64,000 nt of DNA from Streptomyces sp. NBC_00582. Its GTDB lineage: Bacteria; Actinomycetota; Actinomycetes; Streptomycetales; Streptomycetaceae. The notes under the pieces were generated by a model that saw only the letters and a program-made list of their open reading frames with translations, was not told the origin of the DNA and did not search any database. A program made the position numbers and the translations under genes. Below, in pieces: positions 17,458 to 56,900 of the stretch. Position 1 is the stretch's first letter. Every line of letters starts with the position of its first letter. The DNA lies in contig NZ_CP107772.1 in assembly GCF_036345155.1 (NCBI RefSeq), positions 682,001-746,000 on the forward strand, given 5' to 3'.

Positions 17458-17500
17458 TCGATCTCTCCAGGCGGGCGTGCGCATGCCACACCGGCAGGCG

Positions 17501-32527: not shown

Positions 32528-33298
32528 TCAGGTGTCCTGGAGCGCGGTGTGTGAGGTGACGTGCTCGTCGAGGATCTTCAGCACGTCCGCGGCTCGGCTG
32601 TTGAGGTAGAAGTGGCCGCCCGGCATGACGCGCAGCTCGAAGTCCGCGGTGGTGTGCTTCTCCCAGTCCTGGGCCTCGTCGAGAGATGTCTTGGGGTCGC
32701 TGTCGCCGACGAGCGCGGTGACCGGGCAGTCCACCGTCGCGTCGGGAGCACACCGGTAGGTCTCCACGGCCCGGTAGTCGCCCCGGAGCGCCGGAAGGAT
32801 CATGCGGATCAGTTCCTCGTCCTCCAGCAGCCGGTCGTCGGTGCCGCTCATGGACTTGACTTCGGCGATGATGCCGTCGTCGTCGCGGCGGTGGACGTTC
32901 TCGTCGCGGTGGCGGGACGGAGCGCGCCGGCCCGAGGCGAACAGCCGTACCGGGCCGCTTCCCTCCCGCTCGAACCGCCGGGCGACCTCGAAGGCGACGA
33001 GGGCTCCCATGCTGTGACCGAAGAAGGTCAGCGGGCGGTCGTCCCAGGCGCGCAGCACCTGGTGGACCTGGTCCGCCAGGGTGCCGATGTCGTCGATCAG
33101 CGGCTCGTGGCGCCGGTCCTGACGGCCCGGGTACTGCACGGCGACGACATCGACGCGCGGGCTGAGCGCGGTGGCCACGGGGCTGTAGTAGCTGGCCGAG
33201 CCGCCGGCGTGGGGGAAGCAGACCAGGCGGTGGGCGGCCTCGGGAGCCGGGGCGAACCGTCGGCACCACAGGCCGTCGTCTGCGGGGAAGGCACTCAC
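32528..33298 (-). CDS. Type II thioesterase (editing thioesterase)
   Basis: 256 residues from the GTG at 33298; the longer frame upstream has no family features. The alpha/beta-hydrolase thioesterase signatures are VCFPHAGGSASYY (oxyanion region, residues 26-38), GHSMGA with nucleophile Ser96, GDSDPKTS (Asp) and GGHFYLNS with the catalytic His near residue 231. Stand-alone type II thioesterases remove wrong or stalled acyl groups from PKS/NRPS carrier proteins. Because the visible PKS genes have no thioesterase domain, it could also release product, but by family its main role is proofreading. It is divergent from the metallophosphoesterase gene. Confidence 0.9.
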   Translation of the reverse strand: MSAFPADDGLWCRRFAPAPEAAHRLVCFPHAGGSASYYSPVATALSPRVDVVAVQYPGRQDRRHEPLIDDIGTLADQVHQVLRAWDDRPLTFFGHSMGALVAFEVARRFEREGSGPVRLFASGRRAPSRHRDENVHRRDDDGIIAEVKSMSGTDDRLLEDEELIRMILPALRGDYRAVETYRCAPDATVDCPVTALVGDSDPKTSLDEAQDWEKHTTADFELRVMPGGHFYLNSRAADVLKILDEHVTSHTALQDT

Positions 33299-34443: not shown

Positions 34444-35198
34444 CGTCGCTGATGCGCCGCCTGCTGCCGGACACCGTCGAAGTGACGGAGGTGCGGGGGG
34501 AGTTGACCGCACCGCCGCTGTTCGCGGAGGAGGAGGCGGTGGTGGCGCGGGCCGTGGACAAGCGCCGGCGCGAGTTCGCCACCGGGCGGCGCTGCGCCCG
34601 TCTGTCGCTGGCCGCGCTGGGACTTCCGGCGCAACCACTGCTGCCCGGACCGCAGGGAGAGCCCGGCTGGCCCGCCGGAGTGGTCGGCGCGATGTCCCAC
34701 TGCGAGGGCTACCGGGTGGCGGCGGTCGCCAGGGCCACCGATCTGGCGGCGCTGGGCGTCGACGCCGAGACGGCGGCCCGGCTGCCGGACGGCGTGCTGG
34801 AGGCGGTGTCGTTGCCCGAGGAACGCGACGACCTGGCCCGGCACGGGCGAACGGCGCCGGAAGTGCCCTGGGACCGGCTGCTGTTCAGCGCCAAGGAATC
34901 CGTCTACAAGGTGTGGTTCCCGCTCGCCCGCCGGCCGCTGGGGTTCGAGGAGGCGCGGCTGCGCTTCACCCGGGAGCGGGACGTCGCCGGCGCGGCGTGC
35001 GGCACGTTCCAGGTCGGGCTGCTGGTGCCGGTTCCCCCGGAGTTCTCGGGTCCGGTGGGCGGCGCCGGGCTCACCGGCCGATGGCTGGTCGACGAGGGGC
35101 TGGTGCTGACCGCGCTGGCGCCCGCCGCGCGCCGGTCCGGTGACGGGCCGCGCCCCGTCGAGCCGACCGGCCGGGCCGCGGTCCGGCACCCGGGGTGA
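34440..35198 (+). CDS. Sfp-type 4'-phosphopantetheinyl transferase
   Basis: 252 residues of the Sfp/EntD type. Signatures: AMSHCEGYRVAAVA, LGVDAE (the Mg-binding Asp-x-Glu) and FSAKESVYKVWFPL (KExxxK). It moves 4'-phosphopantetheine from CoA to the serine of carrier proteins. Likely clients are the ACPs of the adjacent PKS and the PCP of the NRPS-like protein. The ATG overlaps the stop of the metallophosphoesterase. The C-terminal 20 residues are Pro/Arg-rich and look like an unstructured extension. Confidence 0.93.
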   Translation: MTSLMRRLLPDTVEVTEVRGELTAPPLFAEEEAVVARAVDKRRREFATGRRCARLSLAALGLPAQPLLPGPQGEPGWPAGVVGAMSHCEGYRVAAVARATDLAALGVDAETAARLPDGVLEAVSLPEERDDLARHGRTAPEVPWDRLLFSAKESVYKVWFPLARRPLGFEEARLRFTRERDVAGAACGTFQVGLLVPVPPEFSGPVGGAGLTGRWLVDEGLVLTALAPAARRSGDGPRPVEPTGRAAVRHPG

Positions 35199-35305: not shown

Positions 35306-36790
35306 ATGCCCCAGCTCAACACGACCGGTCCCGAGCCCGACACCGACGCGGTCCTCGCCGCTCGGCTCGCCCTCTCCGCGACGGCCGTCGGGGGCGAGGT
35401 GATGTCCGACGTCGAGTTCTTCGACTGGTTCGACCAGCGCCGCCGCACCCACAGCCAACAGGTGCGCCGCAGCACCTTCGCCGACATGTCCGGCTGGGAC
35501 TTCGTCCCGGACACCGGCGATCTGGCGCATCGCAGCGGACGGTTCTTCACCGTGCGCGGCATGCGGGTGCGCACCGACTTCGGTCCGGTGCCGGAGTGGA
35601 CCCAGCCGATCATCAGGCAGCCGGAGATAGGCATCCTCGGTCTCGCGGTCCGCGAGACCAACGGGGTGCTCCACTGTCTGATGCAGGCCAAGTCCGAGCC
35701 GGGCAACGTCAACGGGGTGCAGCTGTCGCCGACCGTGCAGGCGACCAGGAGCAACTACACCAGGGTGCACGGTGGTGCGTCGGTGCCCTATCTGGACTTC
35801 TTCCGGGAACCGGAGGCACGGGGCCGCCGGGTGCTGGCCGATGTTCTCCAGTCCGAGCAGGGCTCGTGGTTCTTCTGCAAGCGCAACCGCAACATGATCG
35901 TGGAGGTCGGCCCGGAGGTGGAGGCGGACGAGGACTTCTGCTGGCTGACGCTACGGCAGGTCAACGCATTGCTGCACTACGAGAACCTGGTCAACATGGA
36001 CGCGCGCACGGTGCTCTCCTGTCTGCCGGACTGGCACCACGGCGCCGGGCCGGCCACCGGTGTCCACTCGGACGTGGCGATCCGCAGCTGGATCACCACC
36101 CAGCAGAGCGAACGCGAGGTCAGCGCCTCCCTGTTGCCCCTGAGCGAGGTCGAGGGACGCGACTGGTTCCGCGCGGAGGACCGTATCTCCCACGCGCGGG
36201 GCCTGTTCTTCAGCATCGTGCCGGTGGACGTCCTGTCCAACTCGCGTGAGGTGGCCTCCTGGTCGCAGCCGCTGCTCGAACCGCACGGCATCGGGGTGGT
36301 GGCGATGCTGGTGCGCCGGATCGACGGCGTGGCGCACTGTCTGGTGCAGGCCCGGGTCGAGCCGGGGTATCTGGATGTCGTCGAACTCGGCGCCACCGTG
36401 CAGTGCACCCCCGAGAACTACGCCCATCTGCCGGCGGCGGCCCGTCCCCGCTTCCTCGACCTGGTGACGGAGGCCCGTCCGGAGCAGGTGCTCTTCGACA
36501 CGGTGCTGTCCGAGGAGGGCGGCCGGTTCCTGAACGCGCAGAACCGGTACCTGATCATCGAGGTCGACGACAGTGTTCCCGCCGAGGTCCCGGCCGACTA
36601 CCGCTGGGTGACGCTGCGTCAGCTCGGTGAGCTGCTGAAGTACAGCCACTACGTCAATGTGCAGGCCCGGACGCTGGTCGCGGCCCTGCGCAGCGTCGCG
36701 GGGATCTCGCCCGGCCTGCCGCTGGCGGAAGTGCGGGGAAGCGGGGCGGTCTCCGCCGGGGAGGGGGCCGGCCGTGCGGATCATCGGTGA
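35306..36790 (+). CDS. NDP-hexose 2,3-dehydratase
   Basis: 494 residues made of two homologous halves (about 30-230 and 250-480). Each half holds an H/G-L-x-Q-A-[RK]-x-E-P-G signature: HCLMQAKSEPGNVNGVQLSPTVQ in the first and HCLVQARVEPGYLDVVELGATVQ in the second (each read here in parts). This is the TylCVI/EvaA family, which removes water from NDP-4-keto-6-deoxyglucose to give the 2,6-dideoxy route. The ATG has GGAGAGG eight bases upstream. The next gene overlaps it by 17 nt. It indicates that the cluster makes a 2-deoxysugar; the synthase, 4,6-dehydratase and glycosyltransferase genes are not in this window. Confidence 0.92.
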   Translation: MPQLNTTGPEPDTDAVLAARLALSATAVGGEVMSDVEFFDWFDQRRRTHSQQVRRSTFADMSGWDFVPDTGDLAHRSGRFFTVRGMRVRTDFGPVPEWTQPIIRQPEIGILGLAVRETNGVLHCLMQAKSEPGNVNGVQLSPTVQATRSNYTRVHGGASVPYLDFFREPEARGRRVLADVLQSEQGSWFFCKRNRNMIVEVGPEVEADEDFCWLTLRQVNALLHYENLVNMDARTVLSCLPDWHHGAGPATGVHSDVAIRSWITTQQSEREVSASLLPLSEVEGRDWFRAEDRISHARGLFFSIVPVDVLSNSREVASWSQPLLEPHGIGVVAMLVRRIDGVAHCLVQARVEPGYLDVVELGATVQCTPENYAHLPAAARPRFLDLVTEARPEQVLFDTVLSEEGGRFLNAQNRYLIIEVDDSVPAEVPADYRWVTLRQLGELLKYSHYVNVQARTLVAALRSVAGISPGLPLAEVRGSGAVSAGEGAGRADHR

Positions 36791-37556
36791 CGGCTTCCTG
36801 GCCCGTAGCCTGAGCGAGGCCTTCGGGGACCGTTTCCCCGACGTGACCGCGCTCGCCTCCGGGGTCTCCAGCACGTCCACCACGGAACCCGCCGCGTACG
36901 ACCGTGAGGCCGGACTCCTCTACGACGTACTGGACGAGTGCCGGGCGGGCGGCCGCAGACTGCTGTTCTTCTCCACCGCCTCCTTCTCCCTGTACGGCTT
37001 CACGGACCAAGCGGTGGACGAGACGGGCCCCCTGCGGCCGCCGACCACGTACGGCCGGCACAAGCTGGCGCTGGAGAGCGTGGTGCGCCACTCGGGCGTC
37101 GACCACCTGATCCTGCGGGTGAGCCACGCGGTGGGCCACCATCAGCGGCCGCACCAACTGCTGCCGACCCTCGTACGGCACGTCACGGAAGGCCGGGTGA
37201 CGATCCATCAGGGCGCCCACCGTGACCTGCTGGACGTACGGGATCTCGTGCACGCGGTCGACAGGCTGCTGACGGACGGCGTGTCCGGCGAGGTGGTGAA
37301 CGTGGCCTCGGGCGTCCCGCAGCCGGTGGAGTCGATCGTGACGGCCATCGAGGACCGTCTGGGCGTCAGGGCCCACCGTGTGCACCGCCCCGGCCCCACA
37401 GCCGTGACGCGGGCGTCCGTCGGACGCCTACGGCAGTTGGTGCCGGACTTCCGCGCCGCGGTCGCGGATCAGGACTATCTGGGCGCGTTGCTCGACGCGT
37501 ATCTGCCGTACTACACCGCCCAGTCGCAGGACCTGACGGCGCTGCCCTCGCGATGA
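36774..37556 (+). CDS. NAD-dependent epimerase/dehydratase-family protein (probable NDP-hexose 4-ketoreductase)
   Basis: 260 residues of the extended SDR type, with a shortened Rossmann start RIIGDGFLARSL, the catalytic Ser in FFSTASFSLYG and YGRHK as YxxxK. Its place directly after the 2,3-dehydratase, overlapping it by 17 nt, and its short length fit the deoxysugar 4-ketoreductases. A 4-epimerase or related role is possible. The GTG at 36774 is used because GAGGGGG precedes it and the frame begins with the Rossmann strand immediately. It should work on NDP-sugar intermediates for the polyketide's sugar. Confidence 0.82.
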   Translation: MRIIGDGFLARSLSEAFGDRFPDVTALASGVSSTSTTEPAAYDREAGLLYDVLDECRAGGRRLLFFSTASFSLYGFTDQAVDETGPLRPPTTYGRHKLALESVVRHSGVDHLILRVSHAVGHHQRPHQLLPTLVRHVTEGRVTIHQGAHRDLLDVRDLVHAVDRLLTDGVSGEVVNVASGVPQPVESIVTAIEDRLGVRAHRVHRPGPTAVTRASVGRLRQLVPDFRAAVADQDYLGALLDAYLPYYTAQSQDLTALPSR

Positions 37557-39429: not shown

Positions 39430-40476
39430 TCAGGCCCGGGCCCAGTCCGGGATCTCCAGGACGGTCAGCACGGCCGAGGTGGAGACCCAGCCGGCCGCCG
39501 ACGTCGTCATGAGGATGTTGTCGCCCGGCGCCACCAGCCCGTTGACGAGCAGGTGGTTCAGGGAGACCGCCATGTCGCAGGCGCCCATGTGCCCGTACTC
39601 CTTGCCGAAGTGGGCGGTGGAGCGCGACATCGGCAGACCCAGCGGCTGCATCTTCGTCTGCTCGACCATGAGGGAGTCGCTGTTCGCGGCGACCACCCAG
39701 CGCAGGTCCGACGCGTTGAGCCCGGCGTCCACCAGCGAGCGGTGCACCAGATCCAGCTCGAAGTCCCGGATCATCTCCATGCACTTGTCGAGCGGCATCA
39801 CGTGCTGGTTGAAGTACATCAGCAGGTCCAGCGTGCCGGAGGCCTTGCGCTCCTCCCCGCGGAACGGCAGCAGCGACTCCTCCCCGCGGTGCCACTGCTC
39901 CAGCTCCGGCATGGTGCCGGAGTTCACCGCCCGCAGCGCCGCGAACCCGCCCTCGCCACTGAGCAGGACGGCGGCGCCGCCGTCACTGGCGGTGAAGCCG
40001 GTGCCGAAGCCGCGCCACCGGTCGATCAGCGGGCTGGTGAAGTTCTCCGCGGCCGTCACCAGCGCGGTCTCGGCGCCCGCAGCGCCCGTCAGTTGCCCGA
40101 CGGCGACCTCGATCCCGGCCAGTAGCCCGTTGGAGTGCTGTCGCACGTCCGTGCTCGCCACTCCGCTCGCGCCCAGCTCGCGCAGCACGTACCCGGGCGG
40201 GTAGAACCCCTCGGGGCCGTGCTGGACGGCGGTGCAGTGGACATGGAAGTCGAGGTCGTCGATCTCGCTGCCGGACCGGCGGAACGCGTTCCGGGCGGCG
40301 AGTACGGCCATGTCCAGCGCGGGCAGGTCGCCGGCGATGTAGGCGGTGGTCAGCCCGGTGGCGTACTGGATGGAGAACTCGTCGTAGAGACCCTGTGCGA
40401 CGGCCTCCTCGACGGTCACCCGCTGCTCCGGGATGTACACCCCGACCGTGTCGACGTAGACGCCGTTCGTCTTCAT
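39430..40476 (-). CDS. KASIII-like acyltransferase with Ser in place of the active-site Cys (CerJ/DpsC-type)
   Basis: 348 residues of the thiolase fold. The segment that holds the FabH nucleophile reads [12 protein letters not shown], with Ser115 at the Cys position. The FabH VPHQAN site reads VAANSD, so the usual His is Ala264. The FabH GNTSAAS site reads GHMGACD, giving His296 and Asp301. A Ser/Cys-His-(x4)-Asp set is the pattern recalled for KASIII relatives that transfer acyl groups without condensation (CerJ) or use Ser (DpsC). The gene's ATG overlaps the stop of the last PKS gene (ATGA), so it is made together with a synthase that has no thioesterase domain. It may offload the polyketide as an ester or acylate the product. 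Confidence 0.85.
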
Positions 40477-43400
40477 GAGTGGTTGTTCTCCTTGGTTGTC
40501 GTCAGCAGTTCTTCCTTGAGGCGCGACACCAGCAGTACGGGCGTGTCGGCCTCGAACAGCAGGGCGGCGGGCAGCCGGAGCCCCGTGGTCTCGCGCAGCC
40601 GGTTGCGCAGGGCGAAGGCGGTCAGCGAGTTGAGGCCGATGTCGCGGAAGGCACGGGTGTCCTCGACGGCTTCGGGCGAGGCGTAGTCGAGCACCGCCGC
40701 CACGTCCGCGCGCACGAGGTCCATGAGGACGGCGTCGCGCTCCGCGTCGGCCAGCCCGGCGAGACGGCGCCGGAGCATGCTGAGGGCGCCCGCGTCCCCC
40801 GGCCGGCCGGCCCGGCGTCGCGCCGGTGGTCCGGCCAGGCCCCGCAGCGGGGCCGGCAGGCTCGCGTCACCCGCCCGGCCGAGGAGCGTCCCGGTGTCCG
40901 GACGGAGCAGGACGGCGGTGGGGGCGTCCGTTGCGCACGCGGCGTCGAACAGGTCCCGGCACGCGGCCCCGGACAGCAGGCCGACTCCCTTCGGCGCCGC
41001 GCCCGCGGCCCGGTCCTGGCCGTCCCAGGGTCCCCAGGCCACCGACAGCCCCGGCAGCCCCTCGGCACGGCGGCGCCGGGCGAGCGCGTCGAGGAAAGCG
41101 CCCAGGGCGGCCTCGTCGCCCCGCCCCGCGGCCCCCAGTGTGCCGGCGGCGGACGAGAGGAGGACCAGGGGCACCGCGGCGGGGCCGGACCGGCCGGGCG
41201 CCGTCAGCTCGCAGAGGCGCAGTGCCGCCCTCAGCTCCGCCTCCAGCGGTTCTCCGTCCGTGTCCGCCGCGCCGTCCGCCTCCCGGCGCTCCGGCACCTG
41301 CGCCGCGTGGACGACCGCGGTCAGCGGGTGCCCGGCGGGGACCGCGGCGAGGAGCGCGGCCGGCGCCGCCTGGGACGCCGGGTCGCACTCGGCGACGGTC
41401 ACCTCGGCGCCCCGCTCGGTCAGTTCTACCTTGAGGCGGGCAAGTTCCTCCGTCTTCCCCCGGCCGGCGAGCAGCAGACGGCGCGTGTCTCCACGCTCCA
41501 CCAGGTGCCGGGCGATCTCCGCGCCGGCCGCCCGGTCGGCGCCGGTGACCAGGACGGTTCCCTCCGGGTCGACCGGCAGGCCCGTCCCGTCGGCGGTGGC
41601 GGGGACGGGTGTCAGCCTGGGAACCCGCACGGCGCCCTGGACCAGGGCCAGTTGGGGTTCGGGGAGGGCCAGCGCCGACGGCAGGGCCCGCCAGGAGGCG
41701 CGCTTGCCGTCCAGATCGGCCAGCACCAACCGGTCGGGGTCGGCGGGCTGGGCGGAGCGGACGAGGCCCCAGACGGCGGCGACCGCCGGGTCCGGCGCCC
41801 GGGTGCCGTCCTCGGCGAGCGAGCCGGAGGTCAGGACGGCGAGCCGGGCGTCGGCGAACCGGTCGTCGGACAGCCACTCCCCCACCAGTGCGGCGACGTC
41901 GCGCACCGCGGTCGCACCGGTGAGGTCCCCCGGTGCGGGCACGCAGCCGGTCAGGACCGCCTCGGGCACGGCCGCGCCGGAGTCCAGCGCCTTGGCGAGC
42001 GCGGTGAGGCTGTCGTACGCCTCGGTGTAGACACCCGCCTTCATCAGCGCGGCGCGGGCGCCGAGCGGATCGGGTCCGACGAGCGCCCAGCGGGGCTTCT
42101 CCGCCGGGGCCGCGCACTCGATCTCGGGCCATGCGAGCCGGAACAGCGGACCGTGGTGTGCGGTGCGGGCGCGGGTGAGCCGTGCCGGGTCGACGGTCCC
42201 GAGCCGTATCCCGTCGATCGTCGCGACGGGCCGCCCGGTGTCGTCGGCGGCCTCCACGGCGACGGTGTCGGTCCCGGTACGGGTCAGCCGGACGCGCAAC
42301 GACGAGGCGCCCACGGCGTGGAGCGTCATCCCGTGCCAGGCGTCGGGCAGGTACGGCGTGTCGGCGCCGGGGGCCTCCCCGCCGAGGGTGAGGGTGCGCA
42401 GGGCCGTGTCCAGCAGCGCCGGGTGCAGGCAGTAGGAGGCGCCCTCCGGCCGCTGTTCGGCGGTCAGGGCGACCTCGGCGAACAGGTCGTCACCACTGCG
42501 CCACAGACCCAGCAGCCCCTCGCCGGCCCGCACCGGCAGGCCGGCCGGGTCGGCGGGCTCGGCGTCGGCGGGCGGCCAGACCTCCAGGTCGAAGGCGGCC
42601 GGGCCGTCCGCGGGGCACAGCACCGCCCGGGCGTGGCACGTCCAGGGCGTGCCGGGCAGGGCGCCCGCGCGCCGGGAGTACACCCGCAGGAGGCGCTCCC
42701 CCGACGGCTCCGCCTCTCCGACCGTGACCCGCAGTCGGACCTCGTCCCGTTCGGGCAGGACCAGGGGATCCACCGCGGTCAGTTCCACGACGCGGTCGCA
42801 CCCGACCCGTTCGCCGGCCTGGAGGGCGAGTTCGACGAGCACCGTCCCGGGCACGGTCTCCGGGACGGCGGCGGCGCCGGAGAGCGTGCCGGTCAGGACG
42901 AGCCCGCCCGGCTCGGGCAGTTCGACGACCGCGTCCAGCAGCGGGTGCCGGTCCGCCGGGCCGGTGGTGGCGTCGGCGCCGGAGTGCGGGGCGGCGGCCA
43001 TCCAGTAGGGGCGGCGGTGGAAGGCGTAGGTGGGCAGCGGGATCCGGCGTGCCCCGGTGGGTGCCAGCACGGTGTCCCAACGGACCTCGACGCCCCGCAC
43101 GTGCAGCTGCGCGAGGAGGGGCACGAGGCCGAGTCCGTCCGGCCCGGTGAGCGGCAGCAGGTCCGCACGCGCGTCGGGCTCGGCGCCGCCGTCGGGGGAA
43201 TCGCCCTCGGTGTCCGGCCCGCCGAGGACGACCAGGGTGCGGTGACCGCTGTCCAGCAGCGCTCTCAGCGCCTGCTCGGGCCGGCCGCCCTCTCGCGTCA
43301 GACCGTCGGCCCACCGGGCGGCGCCGGTCTCCTCCCCGTCCAGCCAGCCACCGGTCGCGGACGAGAAGAACGGCGTGGCGGCGGGCGTGAAGCCGACCGG

Positions 43401-46400
43401 TGGTGCGGGCTCGTCCGTCGTCCGGGCGTGGTGGACCGCGAGCCGGGCGCCGGCTTCGAGCGGGAGCAGTCCGGCGGCGCAGGCCGCCGCGATCTCGCCG
43501 TCTCCCCGGCCGGTCGTCGCCGCGGGCTCGATGCCGTACGAGCGCAGCAGGGCGGTCATCGCGACGGCCACGGCCCAGCCGAGGGGTCCGGCGATCTCCG
43601 GCCGGCCCCGCCAGTCGGGTTCGGCCCGACCGGCCAGGACGTCGGCGGGGGTCCAGTCGACCAGCCCGGACAGGGCCCGTCCGCAGGCTTCCAGTGCCTC
43701 GGCGAACACGGGGGCGGAGTCGGCCAGCGGTGCGGTGCTCGCCGTCCACCCGGCGTCGGCGGCCGGGAAGGCGAGGACGAGGGCGGGCAGGGCGGAGCCG
43801 GTCGGGGCGGTGCCGCTGACGACCGGGGTGTCGGGCTCGGTCCCGTCCGCCAGCGCCTTCAGGGTGCGCAGCGCCGTGGCGTGGTCCGGGACGGTGAGCA
43901 CCGCGCGGTGTTCCAGGGCGGAGCGGGTCGTGGCGAGCGAGAGGGCCACGTCCGTCAGCCTGGTCGCCGGTTCGTCCGTCAGGAACGTGTGCAGGCGGGC
44001 CGCCTGGCCGCGCAGCGCCTCGGCGCCGCGCGCGGACAGCGCCAGCGGGATGCCGCCGGGCGGCATCGGAGCCCCGGCCTCGGTGCCGTCGGCGGTCCGG
44101 GTGTCGACAGGGGTGTCGGTGCCGCCCACGGCCCCGTCCCGGGGCGGCTCTTCGATGATCACGTGGGCGTTGGTGCCGCTGATGCCGAAGGAGGACACAC
44201 CGGCCCGGCGCGGTCGGTCGCCCGGCGGCCAGGCCACGTCCTCACTCAACAGCTCCACCGCGCCCGCCGACCAGTCGACGTGCGGGGAGGGCGGGCCGGT
44301 GTGCGGGGTGCGGGGCAGGACGCCGTACCGCATCGCCATGATCATTTTGATGATCCCGCCGGCTCCGGAGGCCGCCTGGGTGTGACCGATGTTGGCCTTC
44401 ATCGAGCCCAGCCACAAGGGCCGCTCGCGCTCCTGCCCGTAGGTGGCGAGGAGGGCCTGTGCCTCGATCGGGTCGCCGAGCGGGGTGCCCGTGCCGTGGG
44501 CCTCGACGGCGTCCACGTCGGCGGCGGCGAGTCCTGCGGAGCGCAGCACCTGGCGGATCAGGCGCTGTTGGGCCGGTCCGCTCGGGGCGGTCAGTCCGTT
44601 GGAGGCACCGTCCTGGTTGATGCCGCTGCCGGCGACCCGGGCGAGGACGGTGTGGCCGCGCCGCCGGGCGTCGGAGAGCCGTTCGAGGAGGAGCAGGGCG
44701 ACGCCCTCGGCCCAGTTGGTGCCGTCGGCGTCGGCCGAGAACGGCTTGCACCGGCCGTCGGCGGCCAGGGTGCGCTCCCGGCTGAAGGCCAGGTAGGGGT
44801 CCGGCTGGGACATGACCGCCACACCGCCGGCGAGCGCCAGGTCGCACTCCCCGGCGCGCAGGGCCTGCGCCGCCAGGTGCAGCGCGACCAGCGAGGACGA
44901 GCAGGCGGTGTCCACCGCCACCGAGGGGCCCTCCAGACCGAAGGCGTACGACACCCTGCCCGCGGCCACGTTGCCGGCCGTCCCGTTCTGCATGCCGGAC
45001 GCGTAGTCGTGATAGGTCACGCCCGCGAACACGCCGGTGCGGCTGCCCTGGAGGGAGGTGGGGGCGATCCCGGCCCGTTCGAACACCTCCCAGGAGGTCT
45101 CCAGCAGCAGTCGCTGCTGCGGGTCCATGGTGAGCGCCTCCCGGGGGGAGATGCCGAAGAGCTCGGCGTCGAACTCGCCCGCGTCGTGGAGGAATCCGGC
45201 CTCCCGGACATAGGTGGTGCCGGGGCGGTCGGAGTCCGGGTCGTACAGCGCGTCGAGGTCCCAGCCCCGGTCGGCGGGAAACGGGCCCAGGCCCTCGGCT
45301 CCCGCGGCGACCAGACGCCACAGTGCCTCGGGCGAGTCGGCGCCGCCGGGGAAACGGCAGCCCATGCCGACGATCACCACGGGGTCGTCGTCGGGCCCGG
45401 CGGGGCCGAGGCGGGCGGGGGTGTCCTCGTCCTCGGCCCGCTCCCCGCCCAGGCCCAGTTCGGTCGCCAGGTGCCGGATCAGGGCGCCGGAGGTGGGGTG
45501 GTCGTACACGAGGGTGGCGGGCAGACGCAGTCCGGTCTCCTGCCCGAGCCGGTTGCGCAGGTTCACGGCGGCGAGCGAGTCGAAGCCCAGCTCCTTGAAC
45601 GGCTTGTCGGAGCCGACGAGGTCGGCGCTGTCGTACCCGAGGATCGCGGCGACCTGGCCGGTGACGAGTTCGGCCACCGCGCGGTGCCGCCGGGCGCGGG
45701 GCAGGGAGGCGAGCCGACGGGCGAATCCACCGCCCTCGCCGTCCCCGCCCGCGGCGCCGCGCCGGACGGTGACCCGCAGCAGTCCGCGCAGCAGCGGCGG
45801 CAGTTCACCGGTTTCGGCGCGCGAGCGCAGGGCGCGCCGGTCGAGACGCATCGCGAGCAGGAGCGCCCGCTCGGCGGCGGTGCCGGCGTCGAACAGGGAC
45901 AGGCCCCGCTCGGCGGAGAGGGCGATGACGCCCTGGGCGGCCGCTCGGGCGGTGTGGCCGGGGTCCAGGGCGGCGGTCATGCCGCCGAACCGCTCCCACG
46001 GTCCCCACGCCAGTGAGGTCGCCGGAAGCCCGGCCGCGCGACGATGCTGGGCGAGGGCGTCGAGGAAGGTGTTGGCGGCCGCGTAGCCGGCCTGGCCGGG
46101 ATTGCCGAGCAGGCCCGCCGCCGACGAGAACATCACGAACGCGGAGAGGCTCTGCCGCCGGGTCAGTTCGTGCAGATGGGCGGCGGCGGTGGCCTTTGCG
46201 TGGAAGACCGTGGCCAGGCGCTCCGGTGTGAGCGAGGTGAGCAGACCGTCGTCGAGCACACCGGCGGTGTGCACGACCGCGGTGACCGGGTGCTCGGCAG
46301 GGACGGCGGCGAGGAGGGCCGCCAGCGCGGCGCGGTCGGAGACGTCGCACGCCTCGACCGTGACCTCGGCGCCGAGCGCGGTCAGTTCTTCGCGCAGCCC

Positions 46401-49400
46401 GGCCGCGCCCGGTGCCCCGGCCCCGGACCGGCTGACCAGCAGCAGCCGCCGTACGCCGTGCCCGGCCACCAGATGCCGGGCGGTCAGGGCGCCCAGCCCG
46501 CCGGTGCCGCCGGTGATCAGCACGGTCCCCTCGGCTCCGAACGCCGGCGGCGTTCCTTCGGCCGGACGCGGCGCGCGCACGGCCCTGGGCGCCAGGAACA
46601 CATCGTCGCGGACGGCGAGTTGGGGCTCCTCGCCCTGGAGAGCGGGCAGGGGCGCGGAGTCGGGCGTGTCACGGTCGACGAGCAGGAAGCGGCCGGGGTG
46701 CTCCGACTGGGCCGTCCGCACCAGCCCCCAGACGGGGGCGTGGACGAGGTCGGGTACGCGGTCCTCGGGCGCGGCCGCCACGCCGTGGCAGGTGAGCACC
46801 ACCAGCCGGGATCCGTCGAGCCGCTCGTCGCCCAGCCACTCCTGGAGGGTCGCCAGGACGGCGGCGGTCGCGTCCCGCGCGGCCGTGGCGAGACCCGGAC
46901 CGTCGTCGGGGTCGTCGGCGGAGGCGACCGGCAGCAGCACGGTCGTGGGCGCCGCCGTGCCCTCGTCCAGGGCGGCCCGCAGCGCGGTGAGGTCGTGGTG
47001 GACGCGGACGGGGACGCCCTGCTCGGCGAGGTGGGCGGCGAGGGCCGTGCCGTCCGGGGCGAGCACCGCCCAGTCGCCGTCCCCGCCCGCCGTGAGTCCC
47101 CGGTCGGCGGCCTGACCGGCCACCGGCGCCCACTCCAGCACGTACAGCCCGTCGGGCGGCCCGTCGGCGGCCGACGAGGAGACGTCGGAGAAGGTCAGGG
47201 AGACGGAGTCGACGGTGGCCAGCGGCCGCCCGTGGGTGTCCGCCAGGGTGAGCGCGACGCGGTCGGTGCCCGCGCCCGTGACCCGCAGCCTGGCGGTGCC
47301 CGCTCCGGTGGCGTGCGCGGTCACGCCGTGCCAGCCCCGCGGCAGTGCGACACGGCCCTCGCCCGCCTCGGGCGCGGCCCACAGGACGGTCTGCAGCGCG
47401 GCGTCCAGCAGGACGGGGTGCAGGCCGAAGGCAGCGGAGTCTCCCGCGTGCGCCTCGTCCGGGACGGCCAGTTCGGCGAAGAGTTCATCGCCGCGGCGCC
47501 ACAGGGCGCGCACCCCGCGGAAGGCCGGGCCGCGGACGTGGCCGCGCAGCGCCAGCAGGTCGTACAGGTCGTCCACGTCGACGGGTTCGGCCTGCTCGGG
47601 CGGCCAGACGTCGCTCTCCGGCGCGTTCGCGGCGGGCTGGGCGGTGGTGGTGAGGATGCCCTCGGCGTGGCAGCGCCAGGGCTGGTCGCCCTCGTCGTCG
47701 TCCGGGCGGGAGTGCACCGTCACCGTACGGCGTCCCGTGTCGTCGGCGGCTCCGACCAGGATCTGCATCCGTACCGCGCCCTGCGGGGGCAGCGGCAGCG
47801 GTTCACGGAGGGTCAGTTCCTCCAGGGAGGTACAGCCGGCCTCGTCGCCCGCCCGTACGGCCAGTTCGACGATTACGGACGCGGGCAGCCGCGCGTCGCC
47901 CGCCTCCTCCAGGTCGGCGAGCCAGGAGGGGGAGCGCAGGGACAGCCGCCCGGTGAGGAGCACGCCACCGGCGTCGGCGAGTTCGACGGTGGCACCGAGC
48001 AGCGGGTGCCGCGCGGCCCCGAGGCCCGCGGCACGGATCCCGGCTGCGCCGGAGGCCGCGGCGGGCAGCCAGGCGCGGCGCCGCTGGAAGGCGTAGGTCG
48101 GCAGCGCTTCCGGCGGCGGGGCGGGGGTGTCCGTGTCCGGGCCCGTGCCCTCGCCCCTGAGGAGGCCGGCCCAGTCGACGTCGGCGCCGCGGGTGTGCAG
48201 CGCGGCGAGGGCGGTCTCGAAGACGCGGGGTCCCGGCTGGTCCTTGTGCAGGGCCGGAACGGCGAGCACCTCGTCCTGGGCCGGCAGGCTCTGCGCCGCG
48301 AGGGCGGACAGGGTGCCGTCCGGGCCGAGTTCCAGGCAGCGGGTGACGCCCAGGTCGGCCAGGGCGCGGACGCCGTCGGAGAAGCGGACGGCGTGCCGGA
48401 CGTGCCGCACCCAGTACTCGGGGCCGGCCAGGTCGTCGGGGTCGGCCGGGCGGCCCGTGAGGTCGGAGACGACGGTCAGGCGCGGCGGGTGGAACTCCAG
48501 CGACTCGGCGACCCGCCGGAAGTCGCGCAGCATCGGGTCCATCAGGGGCGAGTGGAAGGCGTGACTCACCCGGAGGGCGGTGGCGCGGTGGCCGTCCGCC
48601 CGGGCCTGTTCCGCGATCTCCTCGACGTCGGCGGCGACGCCGGCGATCACCGTGGCGCGGGGCGCGTTGACGGCGGCGACGCCGACCCGGTCGCTGCGTC
48701 CCTCCAGCAGGGGGAGCACCTCGGCCTCGGAGAGCTGGAGGGAGAGCATGGCGCCGCCCTCGGGGAGCGCCTGCATCAGCCGGCCGCGGGCCACCACCAG
48801 CCGGCAGGCGTCGGCGAGGGACCAGACCCCCGCCACATGTGCGGCCGCCAACTCGCCGACGGAGTGCCCGAGAAGCACGTCGGGACGTACGCCGAAGGAC
48901 TCGGCGAGCCGGAACAGGGCGACTTCCAGGGCGAACAGCGCGGGCTGGGCGTACTCGGTGCGGTTCAGCAGCTCGGCGTCCGTGCCGAACACCACGTCCT
49001 GCAAGGGGCGTTGGAGTGTGGTGTCGACCTGGGCGCACACCTCGTCGAAGGCGTCCGCGAACACCTCGTACGTCTCGTGCAGTTCCCGTCCCATGCCGAG
49101 GCGCTGGGAGCCCTGCCCGGCGAAGAGGAACGCGGTCCGGCCGCTTCCCGAGGCCGAGCCCGTGACCAGGCCGGGCCGGGCGTGACCGGCGGCCAGGGCG
49201 TCCAGGCCGCGCAGCAGTTCGTCGCGGTCGGTGCCGAGCGCCACCGCGCGCTCCTCGAACACGGACCGGGTGGTCAGCAGCGCGGCGGCGGTGCGTGCCG
49301 GGTCCGTCACCGGGCGGGACCGCACGAAGTCGGCGAGCCGCCGGGCCTGGTCGCGCAGGGCGGCGGGGGTACGGCCGCTGACCCGCCAGGGCACCGCCCC

Positions 49401-50843
49401 GGACGGCAGGCGCAGGGCCCGCGGCGCGGGACCGGGCTCGCCGGGGTCGACGGTGACCTCGTCCGGGGCCTGTTCCAGCACGACGTGGGCATTGGTGCCG
49501 GAGACACCGAACGCGGACACCCCCGCCCGGCGCGGACGGTCCGCCGACCGGGGCCAGTCGGTGTTCTGATGGACCAGCCCGACGGCACCGGCCGTCCAGT
49601 CCACGCGGCTGGTGGGCTCGTCGGCGTGCAGGGTCCGCGGGAGCAGGCCGTGGTTCATGGCCAACACCATCTTGATCACACCCGCCACACCCGCGGCGGC
49701 CTGCGTGTGCCCGATGTTCGACTTCACCGACCCCAGCCACAACGGCCGCTCACGGTCCTGCCCATACGTCGCGATCAGCGCCTGCGCCTCGATCGGATCA
49801 CCCAGAGCCGTACCCGTGCCATGCGCCTCCACCGCGTCCACGTCCGCCGGCGTGAGCCCCGCACCCGCCAGCGCGGCCCGGATCACCCTCTGCTGCGACG
49901 GACCATTCGGCGCCGTCAGACCATTCGACGCGCCGTCCTGATTGACCGCACTGCCCCGCACCACCGCCAAAACCCGGTGCCCGTTGCGCCGCGCGTCCGA
50001 CAACCGCTCCACCACCAGCACACCCACACCCTCACCCCACCCCGTACCATCCGCACCCTCCGCGAACGCCTTGCACCGACCGTCCACCGCAAGCCCCCGC
50101 TGCCGCGAGAACTCCACAAACGCCCCCGGCGTCGACATCACCGTCACACCACCGGCCAACGCCAGATCACACTCACCCGAACGCAACGCCTGCACCGCCA
50201 GATGCAACGCCACCAACGACGACGAACACGCCGTGTCCACCGTCACCGCAGGACCCTCCAGCCCCAGCACATACGACACCCGACCCGACAACACCGACGC
50301 GGTGATGCCGGTGGTCAGGTGCCCGTCGGACTCCTCGGGCCGGTCGAGCATGAGCGCGAGGTAGTCCTGGCCGTTGGTGCCCGTGAACACGCCGGTGCGG
50401 CTGCCGCGCAGCGCGCCCGGGTCGATGCCCGCGCGTTCCAGTGCCTCCCAGGAGGTCTCCAGCAGCAGCCGCTGCTGGGGGTCCATGGTCGTGGCCTCGC
50501 GGGGCGATATGTCGAAGAACGTGGAGTCGAACAGCGGTGCGTCGTAGAGGAACGCTCCCTGGCGGGCGTACGTGGTGCCGACACCGCCCGCCGCGTCGAG
50601 GACGCCGTCGAGGTCCCAGCCGCGGTCGGCGGGGAAGTCGGCGACGGCGTCCCGGCCCTCGGTGAGCAGCCGCCAGAACTCCTCGGGCGTGTCCGCTCCA
50701 CCGGGAAAGCGGCAGCCGAGACCGACGATCGCCACCGGCTCCTGGCGGCTCGTCTCGACGTCATGAAGACGCTTGCGGGTCTGGCGGAGGTCGGCCGTCA
50801 CCCTTTTCAGGTAGTCCCGCAGCTTCTCTTCATTGCTCGCCAT
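40473..50843 (-). CDS. Type I modular polyketide synthase, two modules (last module degenerate, no thioesterase)
   Basis: 3456 residues from the ATG at 50843 ([18 protein letters not shown]). The N-terminal coiled coil (1-32) is a docking element. First module: KS about 35-455 (Cys in DTACSSS), AT about 570-860 (GHSVGE, HAFH: malonyl), DH about 940-1220 whose HxxxGxxxxP motif reads [10 protein letters not shown] without His (inactive), KR about 1435-1620 ([16 protein letters not shown]: active, B-type), ACP about 1718-1790 (GFDSL). Second module: KS about 1818-2230 intact, then AT about 2350-2600 with GRGDGE for GHSxGE, DH without motif, KR about 3095-3270 with TGADRAAG and Glu for Tyr (all inactive), and ACP about 3365-3448 (GLNSL, Ser kept). 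No TE. The stop overlaps the KASIII-like gene. Confidence 0.95.
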
Positions 50844-50900
50844 CGTGCTCCACTTCCTCGCCAAAAAGCCGTGAACGGTCCCGTCGCCCGAGCCGGGTGG

Positions 50901-53900
50901 TCAGATCCCGAATTCCTTGTCGATCAGGTCGAACATCTCGTCGTCCGTGGCCCCGTCCAGTTCGGCGATCGCGTCGTCCGTCTCGTCGGCGGTGTCGGCG
51001 CCGGTCCACATCGCCAGCAGTCCACGCAGCTTCGCCGTGATCTCCGGGTGGGCCTCGCCGCCGCCCCCGGCCTCGGTCGCGAGGACCCCCGCCAGCCGGT
51101 CGATCTCGGCGACGACCCCGGACGTCCCGGCCCGCCCCTCTTCCGAGCCCAGGAGTTCGGCGCCCAGATACCGCGCGATGTCCACCGGCGCCGGGTAGTC
51201 GAACACCAGGGTCGCCGGCAGCCGGAGTCCGGTGGCCGCGCCGAGCCGGTTGCGCAGCTCCACCGCGGTCAGCGAGTCGAACCCGGCCTCCCGGAACGCG
51301 CGGCCCGGATCCACCGCGTCGGACCTGGCGTGTCCCAGGACCACGGCCGCCTGCTCGCGCACCAACTCGACCAGCGCCGCAGGACGTTCGTCGGCTCCCA
51401 GGCCGGCCAGCCGCTGCCGCAGCGCGTCGGCGTCCGCCCCGGACGCGACGTCCCGCAGCGCGGTCTCGGCCTCCGGGATCTCTCCCAGCAGGGCGGTACC
51501 GCGTCCGGCGGTGAACGCGGGGGCGAACCGCGTCCAGTCGACCCGTGCCACCACGCCGGCCGGATCGCCGGCGCCCACCAGTCGCTCCATCGCCACCAGG
51601 GCGGGCTCGGCGTCGAGTCCGGTGAGGCCGCGGCGGCGCAGATACTCCTCGACACCGCCGTCGGCCGCCATGCCGTCCTGTGCCCACGGCCCCCAGGCCA
51701 CGGACGTGGCCGGAAGCCCGGCCGCCCCGCGCCGCTCGGCGAGGGTGTCCAGGTAGGCGTTGGCGGCGGCGTAGTTGCCCTGGCCCGGCGATCCGACGGA
51801 ACCCGCGAAGGAGGAGAACAGCACGAAAGCCGACAGCTCCCGGTCCCGGGTCAGCACGTCGAGGTTGTGCGCGGCGACGGCCTTGGCGCGCAGGACGGCC
51901 GCGAAACGCTCCGCGGTGAGCGCCTCCACGAGCCCGTCGTCGAGGACGCCCGCCGTGTGCACCACCGCGTCCACGGGATGCTCGGCCAGCAGCGCCGCGA
52001 GAGCGTCCCGGTCGGCCGCGTCGCAGGCGGCCACGGTCACCCGTACGCCCGAGGCGGCGAGTTCGTCGCGCAGATCCGGCGCACCGGGCGCGTCGAGGCC
52101 GCGTCGGCTGATCAGGACGAGGTGCTCGGCGCCCTGCGCGGCGGCCCAGTGGGCCACCCGGGCGCCCAGCGCGCCCGTCCCGCCCGTGATCAGCACGGTG
52201 CCCGAGGGACGCCATCCCGCGCCGAGGTCGCCGGGTGCCGTCCGGCCGAGCCGTCGCCCGAAGACACCGGTCGCCCGGATCGCCACCTGGTCCTCTCCCG
52301 AGCGGCCCGCGAGGACGCCGACGAGACGGCCCGCGGTGCGCCGGTCCACGGCCTCGGGCAGGTCGACCAGACCACCCCAGGTTTCCGGGTGCTCCAGCGC
52401 CGCGACCCGGCCCAGTCCCCATACCGCGCCCTGCGCCGGGTCGGGCGCCCGGTCGGACCGGTTCACCGAGACCGCCCCCCTGGTCAGCGCCCACAGCGGC
52501 GCCGCGAGGTGGGCATCGCCCAGCGCTTGCAGGAGTACGGCGGTGGCGGCGGGGCCGACCGGAACACCGTCACCGGCGTCCGGGCGCCCGACGTCCGCGG
52601 CGTGCTCGCCGTGCGGCCCGGGCACACCGAGGAAGGACAGGACACCGGCGAGAGGCTCCTCCCCGGCCGCCGTGACCAGCAGCGAGGCCAGCGCGACCCG
52701 GTCGGTGCCGGGCTCGTACACGACCGGCACCAACTCGGCGCCGTACGCAGCGAGACCCTCCAGCACGGCATCGCTCCAGGTGTCTTCCGCCGGCCCGGCG
52801 GGCAGCACGGCCAGCCAGCGGCCCGGCAGCGCGCCGCCGGACACCGCGCCGAGCGGCTTCCACGTGATGCCGTAGAGCCAGTCGTCGACCCTGGACTGCT
52901 CCTGCTGTCCGCGCCACCACGACGACAGCGCCGGCAACAGCCCGTCCAGCGCGTCCGGTGCCACGCCGAGCGAGTCGGCCAGCGTACGGGCGTCGCCCCG
53001 CTCGACCGCGGTCCAGAACCCGGCGTCCGCGCGGTCGGCGGAGCCCGCCGTCGACTGGCCTCCCAGCCGCGCGCCCTCGGGCCAGAAGCGCTCACGCTCG
53101 AAGGCGTAGGTCGGCAGGTCCACCACGGTGGCCCCGGCCGGAGCGAAGACGGCCCGCCAGTCCACCTGGCCGCCGTGCAGATGCAGCCGCGCGATCGCGG
53201 AGAGGATCGAGTGGGTCTCGGAGCGGTCCTTGCGCAGGGCCGGGGTCAGCAGGCGCCCCTCCGCGTCACCCTCGAGACCGGCCTGGGCCAGCGCGGTCAA
53301 CGTGCCGTCCGCACCCAGCTCCACGAACCGGGAGACACCCTGCCCGTCCAGACACCCCACCGCAGCCGCGAACCGCACCGGCCGACGCACATGCTCCACC
53401 CAGTAATCCGACGACGTCAGCTCCTCGACCGTCGCCGCCTCACCCGTGACCGTCGACACGACCGGTATCCGCGGCAGCCCGTACGACAGCCCCTCGGCCA
53501 CCACCCGGAAGTCCTCCAGCATCGGCTCCATGAGCGGCGAGTGGAAGGCGTGGCTCACCCGCAACGCCGTGACCTTGCGGCCCTGGACGCGGAAGCCCTC
53601 CGCGATCTCCTCGACCGCGGACTCCGTACCGGAGATCACCACGGCCTGGGGGCCGTTGACCGCGGCGATGCCCACCTCGTCGCCGAGGAGGGGCAGCACC
53701 TCGTCCTCGGTGGCCTGGAGCGCCACCATCGCACCGCCGGCGGGAAGGGCCTGCATCAGCCGGCCCCGCGCCACCACCAGACGGCACGCGTCCGCCAGCG
53801 ACCACACCCCGGCGACGTGAGCGGCCGCGATCTCACCGATCGAATGCCCGGCGAGGACGTCCGGACGCACACCCCACGACTCCAGCAGCCGGAACAGCGC

Positions 53901-56900
53901 CACTTCGAGGGCGAACAGGGCCGGTTGGGTGAACTCCGTGCGGTTCAGCAGGTCGGCGTCCTCACCGAACACCACCTCCCGCAGATCGAAGGGGAGTTCC
54001 GCGTCCACCGCGTCGAAGGCCTCGGCGAAGACGGGATATGTGGCGTACAACTCCCCGCCCATGCCCAGGCGTTGCGAGCCCTGGCCCGCGAACAGGAAGG
54101 CGAGCCGTCGGCCCGAGCGGCCGGGTGTGCCGGTGAGGACGGTGGTGTCGTGCTCGCCGATCGCCAGTGCGCGCAGTCCACGCAGCACTTCGGCGCGGTC
54201 GGTGCCCAGGACGACGGCGCGGTGCTCCAGCCAGGGCCGGAGGGTCGACGAGAGGCCGAGGTCGCTCAGGCGCAGTCCGGGGTCGGCGTCGAGGTGAGCC
54301 CACAGCCGTTCGGCCTGGCCGCGCAGAGCGCCCTCGGAAGCGGCGGACAGCGCGATCGGAGTGAGGAGCCGCTCATCCGGCACCGGGGCCGGTTCGGGGG
54401 TGTCCGTGTCGGGTGACTGCTCGATGATGACGTGGGCGTTGGTGCCGCTGATACCGAAGGACGACACGCCTGCGCGCCGGGGACGCTCCTCCGGCTCAGG
54501 CCACGGCCTGTTCTCCGTGAGCAGCGTGATGTCGCCGGCCGACCAGTCGACGAAGGGCGACGGCTCCTCGGCGTGCAGGGTGCGCGGCAGGACTCCGTGC
54601 CGCATCGCCATCACCATCTTGATCACACCACCGACACCGGCCGCCGCCTGCGTGTGACCGATGTTGGACTTCAACGAGCCCATCCACAGGGTCTGTTCGC
54701 GGTCTTGGCCATAGGTCGCCAGCAGCGCCTGCGCCTCGATCGGGTCACCCAGCGGCGTCCCCGTACCGTGCGCCTCCACCGCGTCCACATCGGCGGGCCG
54801 CAGACCGGCACCCGCCAGCGCCTGCCGGATCACGCGCTCCTGCGAGGGACCGTTGGGGGCGGTCAGGCCGTTGGAGGCGCCGTCCTGGTTGACCGCCGAA
54901 CCCGCCACCACCGCGAGCACGCGATGACCGTTGCGCCGCGCGTCCGACAGGCGCTCCAGCACCAGCATGCCGATGCCCTCGGACCAGGCGGTGCCGTCGG
55001 CTCCGGCACCGAAGGACTTGCAGCGGCCGTCGGAGGCGAGGCCACGCTGCTGGCTGAAGTCGACGAAGGTGTCCGGCGTGGACATCACCATGACACCGCC
55101 GGTGAGGGCGAGATCGCACTCGCCGGACCGCAGCGACTGCGCGGCCAGATGCAGGGTGACCAGGGAGGAGGAGCAGGCGGTGTCGACCGTCATCGCCGGG
55201 CCCTCCAGGCCGAAGGTGTAGGCGATACGGCCGGAGTGGACGCTGCTGGTGTTGCCGGTGAGCAGGTAGCCGTCGGAGTCGTGCTCCCCCTCGCGCAGGC
55301 AGGAGTTGTAGTCCTGGCCCATGACACCGGCGAACACCCCGGTGCGGCTGCCGCGCAGTGCGGTCGGGTCGATGCCGGCCCGTTCCAGGACCTCCCAGGA
55401 CACCTCCAGCAGCAGCCGCTGCTGCGGGTCCATCGCCAGTGCCTCGCGCGGCGAGATCCCGAAGAGTCCGGCGTCGAAGTCCGCCGCGTCGTAGAGGAAA
55501 CCGCCTCGCCGGACGTAGGTCGTGCCCAGCCGGCCGGGCTCGGGGTCGTACAGCTCCTCCAGGTCCCATCCGCGGTCGGTCGGGAAGTCACCGATCGCGT
55601 CGCCGCCCTCGCTGACCAGTCGCCACAGGTCCTCGGGCGACTCGACGCCGCCGGGGAACCGGCAGGCCATGCCGACGATGACCACGGGGTCGTCGTCCGT
55701 GCCCTTCCAGGCGGGCAGCCCCGCGCCCCGGGCCTCGGCTGTGTCGCCGGCGAGCGCGGTCAGCAGGTGCCGGGCGAGCGCGAGGGGCGAGGGGTGGTCG
55801 AACACCAGCGTGGCGGGCAGGCGCAGCCCGGTGGTGGCGTTGACGCGGTTGCGGAGCTCGACCGAGGTCAGTGAGTCGAAGCCCAGTGTCTTGAACGCCT
55901 GGCCCGGCTCCACGTCGGTGGCGGAGGCGTGTCCGAGCACATGGGCCACCAGGCCGGAGACCAGTTCCAGCAGGAACGGTTCGCGCTCGGCGGAGGGCAG
56001 GGCCAGCAGCCGGGCGCGCAGCTCGTCGCCACCGGTGCCGTGACCGCCGGTGTACGCGGTGCGCCGGGCGGGGTCGCGCACCAGCCCTCGTACCAGCGCG
56101 GGCGGGTCGGGGAGTTCGCGCAGCGCCCGGAGGTCGAGGTCGACGGGGAGGAGGAAGGCGGGTTCGCGGTCCCGGAGCACGGCGTCGAGCACCGCGAGGC
56201 CCTGCTCGGCGGCGAGCGGTCGTACGCCGCCGCGTGCCATGCGCTTCAGGTCCGCTTCGGTCAGCTCGGCGGTCATGCCCGCGCCTGGAGCCCAGGGGCC
56301 CCAGGCGAGTGAGACCGCGGGCAGACCGAGGTTGCGACGGCACCGGGCGAGGGCGTCCAGGTAGGCGTTGGCCGCGGCGTAGTTGGCCTGTCCGGCGCCG
56401 CCGAAGGTGGCCGACACCGAGGAGAACAGCACGAACGCGGCCAGGTCCAGGTCACGGGTGAGCGCGTCGAGGTGCGCGGCCGCGTCCGCCTTGGGACGCA
56501 GCACCGTGAGCAGTCGTTCCTCGGTCAGCGAGGCGAGTACGCCGTCGTCGACGACACCGGCGGTGTGGATCACTCCGCTCAGCGGGCGGTCGTCCGGGAC
56601 CGACGCCAGCAGGCTCTCCAGGGCCTGCCGGTCGGCCACGTCACAGGCAGCGACGGTGACGTCGGCGCCCAACGCGGTGAGCGCCGTGGTGAGTTCGTCC
56701 GCGCCCGGCGCCTCGGGTCCGCGTCGGCCGGCCAGCAGCAGGTGGCGTACGCCGTGCTCGGTGACGAGGTGACGCGCGACCAGGGCGCCCAGGCCGCCGG
56801 TGCCGCCGGTGACGAGGACGGTGCCGTCCGCGAGGCGCCGCGAGGCGCTCTCGCCACCGGTGGGGGCGGGTGAGGAGGGGCTGGGCAGGGGGGCGTGGAC

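Follow-up and report, generated by a model that had tools for sequence, protein, structure and literature searches.

A type I polyketide synthase module reduced to its ketosynthase and carrier protein, and a linked serine-type KASIII-like protein predicted to release its chain, in Streptomyces

The window analyzed here is a 64,000-nucleotide stretch of the genome of Streptomyces sp. NBC_00582 (contig NZ_CP107772.1, positions 682,001 to 746,000). It holds the end of a modular type I polyketide synthase (PKS) line, here called block A, and, directly after it, a gene for a KASIII-like protein (P0001). We find that the last module of this line, module 8, has kept the catalytic residues of its ketosynthase (KS8) and acyl carrier protein (ACP8) and has lost those of its acyltransferase (AT8), dehydratase (DH8), and ketoreductase (KR8). 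The same pattern recurs in a clade of related loci, and purifying selection acts on the two retained domains and the KASIII-like protein. The KASIII-like protein probably releases the block A side chain as an ester onto a neighboring macrolide or its sugar, with KS8 acting as a relay that does not extend the chain.

Architecture and conservation of module 8

The terminal PKS protein (40473..50864, minus strand, with a likely start at the ATG at 50843) consists of modules 7 and 8. Module 7 (45450..50741, minus strand) has a KS, a malonyl-type AT with the HAFHS signature, a DH that has lost its His, a KR with active motifs, and an ACP. Module 8 corresponds to residues 1827-3453 of the same minus-strand frame. 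All catalytic motifs of KS8 (44148..45386) are intact (DTACSSS, AHGTGT, and KANIGH), and ACP8 (40506..40730) keeps its serine within a GLNSL motif. Between these two domains lie remnants of AT8 (42951..44147), which reads GRGDGE and is missing the HAFHS region, of DH8 (42195..42950), which is without its catalytic His and in which HxxxGxxxxP is absent, and of KR8 (40854..42092), which reads TGADRAAG and has the catalytic Tyr changed to Glu. Module 8 does not have the active AT that is required of an elongating type I PKS module. Only 10 residues follow the last ACP match, which leaves no room for a thioesterase (TE) or a docking domain. The intact KS8, the ACP8 serine, the altered AT8, DH8, and KR8 motifs, and the absence of a TE had been read from the DNA in the original prediction and are borne out by our alignments; the loss of the DH His in module 7 had not been part of it.

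A protein search returned 52 relatives of the KASIII-like protein, and a scan of genome contigs gave 36 loci. A match at E 1e-60 or better is present in 14 of a sample of 199 genomes of the genus that includes the window's. The window and its 13 closest loci (L022-L034, of which L022 is the S. griseoruber locus) make up the Ser clade, and the remaining 23 loci the Cys clade. Module 8 is complete in 11 members of the Ser clade (the window, L022, L023, L024, L026, L027, L028, L030, L032, L033, and L034); the other three (L025, L029, and L031) hold only pieces of it and were excluded from the module, omega, and KS counts.

The KS8 motifs, including the Cys and both His, are intact in 11/11 complete modules. 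AT8 has lost its Ser in nine of them and its His in ten, with at least one of the two lost in every row, and the HAFHS region is missing throughout (11/11). The DH8 His and the KR8 Tyr are likewise lost in all 11, and the frames are open. The ACP motif is GLNSL in all 14 Ser-clade ACPs (the window and 13 loci). Of the 20 Cys-clade loci with an ACP-ending upstream protein, 19 have GFDSL and L050 has GLESL. Because one pattern, an intact KS and ACP around a dead AT, DH, and KR, is found in 11/11 homologous modules, the losses are a shared property of the Ser clade and reflect neither local decay nor chance. A pseudogene or an assembly error was considered and is ruled out by the same losses in open frames in all 11 modules and by the constraint on KS8 and ACP8. 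A motif alignment showing AT8 and KR8 to be active variants had been named as counting against the original prediction; in our alignment, every complete module has lost at least one AT8 catalytic residue and the KR8 Tyr. In module 7, the DH His is lost in the window, L022, L023, L026, L027, L028, L032, and L033, and L034 keeps HKVAGAVLLP (the stretch is covered in these nine).

We estimated omega by the pairwise Nei-Gojobori method between the window and 10 loci, so that every pair includes the window and the values are not independent. Mean omega is low for KS8 (0.13), ACP8 (0.21), and the KASIII-like protein (0.18) and relaxed for AT8 (0.49), DH8 (0.53), and KR8 (0.44). In module 7 it is 0.11 for the KS (KS7, n=4), 0.23 for the ACP (ACP7), 0.25 for the AT (AT7, n=9), 0.34 for the KR, and 0.48 for the dead DH. 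Purifying selection has kept KS8, ACP8, and the KASIII-like protein and is relaxed on AT8, DH8, and KR8, which makes module 8 a clean example of a module in which only a KS and an ACP are selected.

In 33 of the 36 loci, the protein encoded directly before the KASIII-like gene has no TE and ends in an ACP. In the window, the PKS stop overlaps the KASIII start by 4 nt as ATGA (40473-40476), as had been noted before, with AAGGAG upstream. This 4-nt overlap is found in this strain alone; in the 13 other Ser-clade loci the PKS stop lies 47-88 nt before the KASIII start, and across the 33 linked loci it ranges from 233 nt before (L044) to 11 nt past that start. At the front of the ACP-linked protein, a KS is visible in 17 loci (in one its Cys is changed to Ser) and an AMP ligase in three, and a contig end cuts the remaining 13. 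Since KS8, ACP8, and the KASIII-like protein are selected and the gene follows a terminal ACP in 33/36 loci, a role in release or transfer fits. The proposal that the terminal KS-ACP and the KASIII-like protein form a release system thus gains from the constrained parts and from the linkage, but the loss of the AT is no requirement for the presence of the KASIII-like gene, because GHSxGE is intact in 8/8 Cys-clade loci having an aligned AT (the AT/KS alignment took in 16 of the 23).

A KASIII-like protein with a serine nucleophile

P0001 (39430..40476, minus strand, 348 amino acids) has a predicted Ser115-His296-Asp301 triad, at the positions originally given for these residues, as the alignment confirms. 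Pfam PF08541 scores over its cut-off and PF08545 just under (23.5 of 24 bits); against the seven NCBIfam families listed, FabH among them, every score is far below cut-off. The positions of His296 and Asp301 hold His and Asp in 70 of 71 aligned rows and Asn and Ser in a FabH-like control, and both residues are invariant in a set of 23 aligned sequences (23/23). P0001 therefore does not have the Cys-His-Asn triad of the FabH condensing enzymes. With Ser115 as the nucleophile, the active-site Cys of the CerJ/ChlB3 group is not present either; the other linked relatives of P0001, outside the Ser clade, are Cys-His-Asp. An AlphaFold model (pLDDT 85.2, pTM 0.88) has ChlB3, NatS, DpsC, and CerJ as its leading fold matches in the PDB, with template modeling (TM) scores of 0.84-0.90 by query length and 0.84-0.92 by either length, and the first FabH stands at rank 21 (among the best 50 of 1007 matches). 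The nucleophile-His-Asp triad and the thiolase fold place P0001 among the KASIII-like acyltransferases, with acyl transfer itself as the predicted activity.

A tree of 71 KASIII-like rows groups the 17 Ser rows, including the window, in one clade (100/100) inside a Cys-type family. DpsC, the only other Ser row, branches with P0054 (99/88) among the Cys-type rows, a placement that carries a long-branch warning; its Ser appears to have arisen separately from that of the P0001 clade. The other solved relatives in the tree are ChlB3, 9z38, and NatS (7vyu). In the phylogenetic comparison that had been suggested for this protein, DpsC thus appears to fall elsewhere; CerJ is not part of the tree. The original argument, that a Ser triad suggests acyl transfer, holds in so far as the triad matches that of DpsC, which is called AT-like and which self-acylates and transfers the acyl group to an ACP (PMC12664062). 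Ser is not itself the mark of transfer, as CerJ and ChlB3 transfer with Cys.

Two PKS lines with separate loaders

We analyzed a 322 kb region around the cluster in the 11.1 Mb genome and found two PKS lines on one strand. Block A (contig coordinates 722473-771707) begins with a loader whose KS has Gln at the Cys position (KSQ, DAGQSSS). Modules 1-4 have a DH, an enoylreductase (ER), and a KR, module 5 a DH and a KR, module 6 a KR, and module 7 a dead DH, followed by module 8. Modules 4-6 are encoded by the upstream PKS protein (50901..63998, minus strand, reaching contig coordinate 749319 outside the window), and beyond its last ACP this protein continues in a long tail that resembles a docking region. 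In the loader and in modules 1-7 alike, the AT carries the malonyl-type signature HAFHS. General AT and KR rules predict that block A builds an unbranched C16 3,5-dihydroxy-6-enoyl chain. Block A gave no TE match, and among the open reading frames (ORFs) called in the 322 kb the AT seed matched only frames also holding a KS, so that no free-standing AT turned up among them. In module 2, the ER is split over two frames at about contig 757446-757827 and is a single open frame in the homologue of genome G134; the split is either an assembly error or a strain-specific lesion.

The second line, blocks C and B (contig coordinates 785333-910123), has its own KSQ loader (DSAQSSS) and ends in a TE at 785408-786046. 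Adjoining this TE are genes for an EryCIII-like glycosyltransferase and a nucleotidyltransferase, and a nearby frame encodes what we take to be a dTDP-glucose 4,6-dehydratase. A TE elsewhere in the cluster had been named as an observation that would count against KASIII-mediated release. Such a TE does exist, about 63 kb from the KASIII-like gene, but it ends a different line, because blocks C and B have their own loader. A match to the block B TE with 76-90% identity is present in 9 of the 10 Ser-clade genomes searched. In G134 (two contigs, completeness 100), the KASIII-like gene and the TE share a strand at a distance of about 58 kb; the order from loader to module 8 matches that in the window's genome, and the AT, DH, and KR of module 8 are again dead. 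In G009 the two are on one contig, about 43 kb apart. KASIII-TE linkage is thus shown in three genomes, the window's, G134, and G009; where it was looked for in the other genomes, the TE is on another contig. Notonesomycin was considered as a candidate for the macrolide, without a match to support it (PMC7081687).

Proposed release route and alternatives

The window would hold the end of an independent side-chain PKS made of a KSQ loader, seven elongating modules, and a module reduced to KS and ACP. KS8 would take the finished chain off ACP7 and hand it un-extended to ACP8. Ser115, activated by His296-Asp301, would accept the acyl group from ACP8 and pass it on to a hydroxyl group. This hydroxyl would most likely sit on the macrolide that the second PKS produces, or on the deoxysugar of that macrolide; the TE, glycosyltransferase, and dTDP-sugar genes of the second line lie about 63 kb off. 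Release would then be a trans-esterification joining two polyketides, with no TE reaction. AT8, DH8, and KR8 may be scaffold only, as the same domains of the terminal CalA3 module can be (PMC10006239), which would explain the open module 8 frame. Building on the observed architecture, motifs, selection, three-genome linkage, and Ser-clade ancestry, we infer each step of catalysis, the identity of the acceptor, and the structure of the chain. A peptidyl carrier protein-bound amino acid had been suggested as a further acceptor, and nothing in the analysis points there.

Several observations weigh against this route. KS8 keeps both catalytic His, which is compatible with elongation if an AT such as AT7 supplied the extender in trans. 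A discrete thioesterase gene lies inside the window. The C116S variant of CerJ is inactive (PMC9573744), so a working Ser needs other changes, and the Ser clade must have compensated for this. In L039, L040, and L045, the KASIII-like gene is present without a preceding PKS ACP, and L040 shows sugar genes instead. G008, one of the 10 Ser-clade genomes, has only a 40% match to the block B TE. Finally, the distances of the KASIII-like proteins correlate about equally with those of the DH-KR-ACP blocks (r 0.955) and of the terminal KS (r 0.953) over 18 loci (17 loci and the window). A Mantel test of KASIII against ACP had given r 0.91 (n=33, 32 loci and the window; 0 of 2000 permutations), and we dropped this result as a sign of specific KASIII-ACP co-evolution, because a control that correlates equally means that the co-variation does not single out the ACP. 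For the seven Cys-clade loci only, the KASIII correlation is 0.92 with DH-KR-ACP vs. 0.74 with KS.

The strongest alternative, which we nevertheless regard as unlikely, is that module 8 elongates: a trans-acting AT such as AT7 would load ACP8, KS8 would condense, and the beta-keto chain left unreduced by the dead KR8 would be released by the KASIII-like protein or would cyclize. This alternative has the release step in common with the route preferred here, so the two are not mutually exclusive. It draws on the KS8 Cys and both His, present in 11/11 Ser-clade modules, and on a constraint close to that of KS7 (0.13 vs. 0.11). AT8 is dead in all of these modules, however, the ORFs called in the 322 kb include no free AT, and the route without elongation needs no supplier.

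It is improbable that KS8 is the releasing enzyme and hands the chain to a nucleophile, with AT8, DH8, and KR8 as scaffold and the KASIII-like protein doing other work. The model for this is CalA3, whose terminal KS amidates the chain and whose AT-DH-KR are described as likely nonenzymatic (PMC10006239). CalA3 is without a terminal ACP, whereas ACP8 is present and constrained (omega 0.21), as is the KASIII-like protein (0.18).

Slighter still is the chance that the KASIII-like protein acts on a starter unit like DpsC, with which it shares the Ser-His-Asp triad (PMC12664062). The AMP-ligase fronts of L042, L044, and L056, where the ligase is fused to the ACP-bearing protein, could be starter modules and so add to the points against ester release of a finished chain. 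Against a starter role stand the KSQ loaders in both lines, the position of the gene at the PKS end in the 17 loci with a visible KS, and the separate branching of DpsC. The least probable alternative is hydrolysis to the free acid by the discrete thioesterase (32567..33229, minus strand; by its look a type II enzyme for editing or a rival release enzyme), with the KASIII-like protein as a leftover: 10 of the 13 Ser-clade loci do have weak TE-seed matches downstream of their KASIII-like gene, but a leftover is at odds with an omega of 0.18 and with the invariance of His296 and Asp301 in 23/23 sequences.

Exchangeable fronts in the Cys clade

Cys-clade loci differ in what precedes the terminal ACP. 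In L042, L044, and L056, an AMP ligase is fused to a PKS DH-KR-ACP without KS or AT (by Pfam for L042). Because the ligase replaces KS-AT in these three loci, the ACP and the KASIII-like protein are the constant part. The locus of Streptomyces marokkonensis (L050, 4564-9966) has a single module in which the KS reads DTASSAS (Cys to Ser) and the malonyl-type AT with HAFHS is intact, together with a KASIII-like gene; this module could possibly make a malonyl ester as CerJ does. At 11417-15244 (minus strand) of L046, a frame convergent to the KASIII-like gene has an AMP ligase followed by the N-terminal domain of a PKS DH along with a Rossmann domain of the SpnB type; at E 1e-5 it matched neither a KR nor an ACP.

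In a DH-KR-ACP tree of 26 loci and eight proteins of the window's genome, one branch splits the 27 KASIII-linked terminal blocks from 15 others (support 51/89; a single change in 50% of bootstraps). The terminal KS domains need four changes in their tree, where the Ser-clade KS8 stands beside five KSs of its own line (87/84). This weakly suggests that DH-KR-ACP and KASIII travel together while the front is exchanged.

We therefore put forward, as a tentative reading about which we remain somewhat doubtful, a recurrent modular-PKS release cassette in which a terminal DH-KR-ACP and a KASIII-like acyltransferase replace the TE and esterify the chain to a second polyketide. With the same reserve, its fronts may be interchangeable, being a full KS-AT, a transfer module with KS and an inactive AT (KS-AT0), a Cys-to-Ser KS with an intact malonyl-type AT, or an AMP ligase. 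In the Ser clade, on a similarly tentative footing, this front might have turned into a relay of KS and ACP, with GLNSL marking the ACP and with a partner enzyme of the Ser type.

Neighboring genes

The window also encodes an NDP-hexose 2,3-dehydratase for deoxysugar formation (35306..36790, plus strand) and an NAD-dependent epimerase/dehydratase family protein with a probable role in sugar tailoring (36657..37556, plus strand). A frame matching 4'-phosphopantetheinyl transferase (33747-35198, plus strand) adjoins the cluster. Further away is a 1010-amino-acid protein with AMP-binding and PP-binding domains, of which some 420 N-terminal residues have no Pfam match (14452-17484, minus strand). 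Six adjacent genes at 1765-7811 (plus strand), with putative UbiA-like, TIM barrel, TatD-like, and phosphodiesterase-like products, may form an operon resembling the Ebo type. Outside the window, between blocks B and C (contig 870875-881756), we found an AfsA-like gene and genes for a PPDK_N/PEP-utiliser protein and a P450, as well as a Cys-type FabH-like gene.

Comparison with known systems

What a polyketide becomes depends on how its chain is released. PtmR, LovD, and PapA5 are stand-alone acyltransferases that remove a chain from the ACP of a type I PKS; their PKSs are iterative, and LovD and PapA5 have other folds. Among the literature matches listed, no title or opening of an abstract describes a KASIII-like enzyme that releases a modular PKS chain via a reduced KS-ACP module, and as the matches under-cover subscription journals this is no proof of novelty. 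If the pair of ACP and acyltransferase is portable, it could serve to esterify chosen alcohols with designed polyketide chains.

ChlB3, CerJ, and NatS resemble P0001 in the KASIII fold and the nucleophile-His-Asp arrangement, and they are among its best matches by sequence and fold. CerJ forms a malonyl ester on a sugar and ChlB3 moves 6-methylsalicylic acid from a PKS to an ACP, both with Cys (PMC9573744). Unlike them, P0001 has a Ser nucleophile and is predicted to act on a long chain, with the terminal ACP of a modular type I PKS made of several proteins as its predicted partner. DpsC shares the Ser-His-Asp triad and differs as a type II PKS starter enzyme that does not group with P0001. 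In CalA3, whose terminal module has only a catalytic KS, the KS releases the chain as an amide and there is no ACP, where module 8 has a constrained one. Mad16 is a FabH-like protein that releases the chain of a TE-less modular type I PKS and forms a tetronate (PMC7489565). That release needs a glyceryl-ACP made by FkbH. Tetronate-type release is ruled out for the window cluster, which is without a local FkbH; the only FkbH over cut-off in the genome is at 6.95 Mb, 6.2 Mb away.

The nearest parallel at the level of the whole system is mycolactone. It is made by a core line and a side-chain line, and the FabH-like MUP045 was reported to be essential, with the suggestion that it joins the products of both lines (PMC2569948); by resemblance, MUP045 has been called an atypical acyltransferase (PMC3720922). 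The cluster described here has the same outline, with two modular lines that have their own loaders, a core line with a TE, and a linked KASIII-like gene. The likeness to MUP045 is one of description, and the available part of the mycolactone account (PMC2569948) does not describe a reduced terminal module. Mycolactone provides the outline of a TE-less ending in which one polyketide receives the chain of a modular PKS, with the joining step still a suggestion (PMC2569948). For testing that step, the Streptomyces system offers natural variants, with Cys or Ser as the nucleophile, the AT kept or lost, and AMP-ligase fronts.

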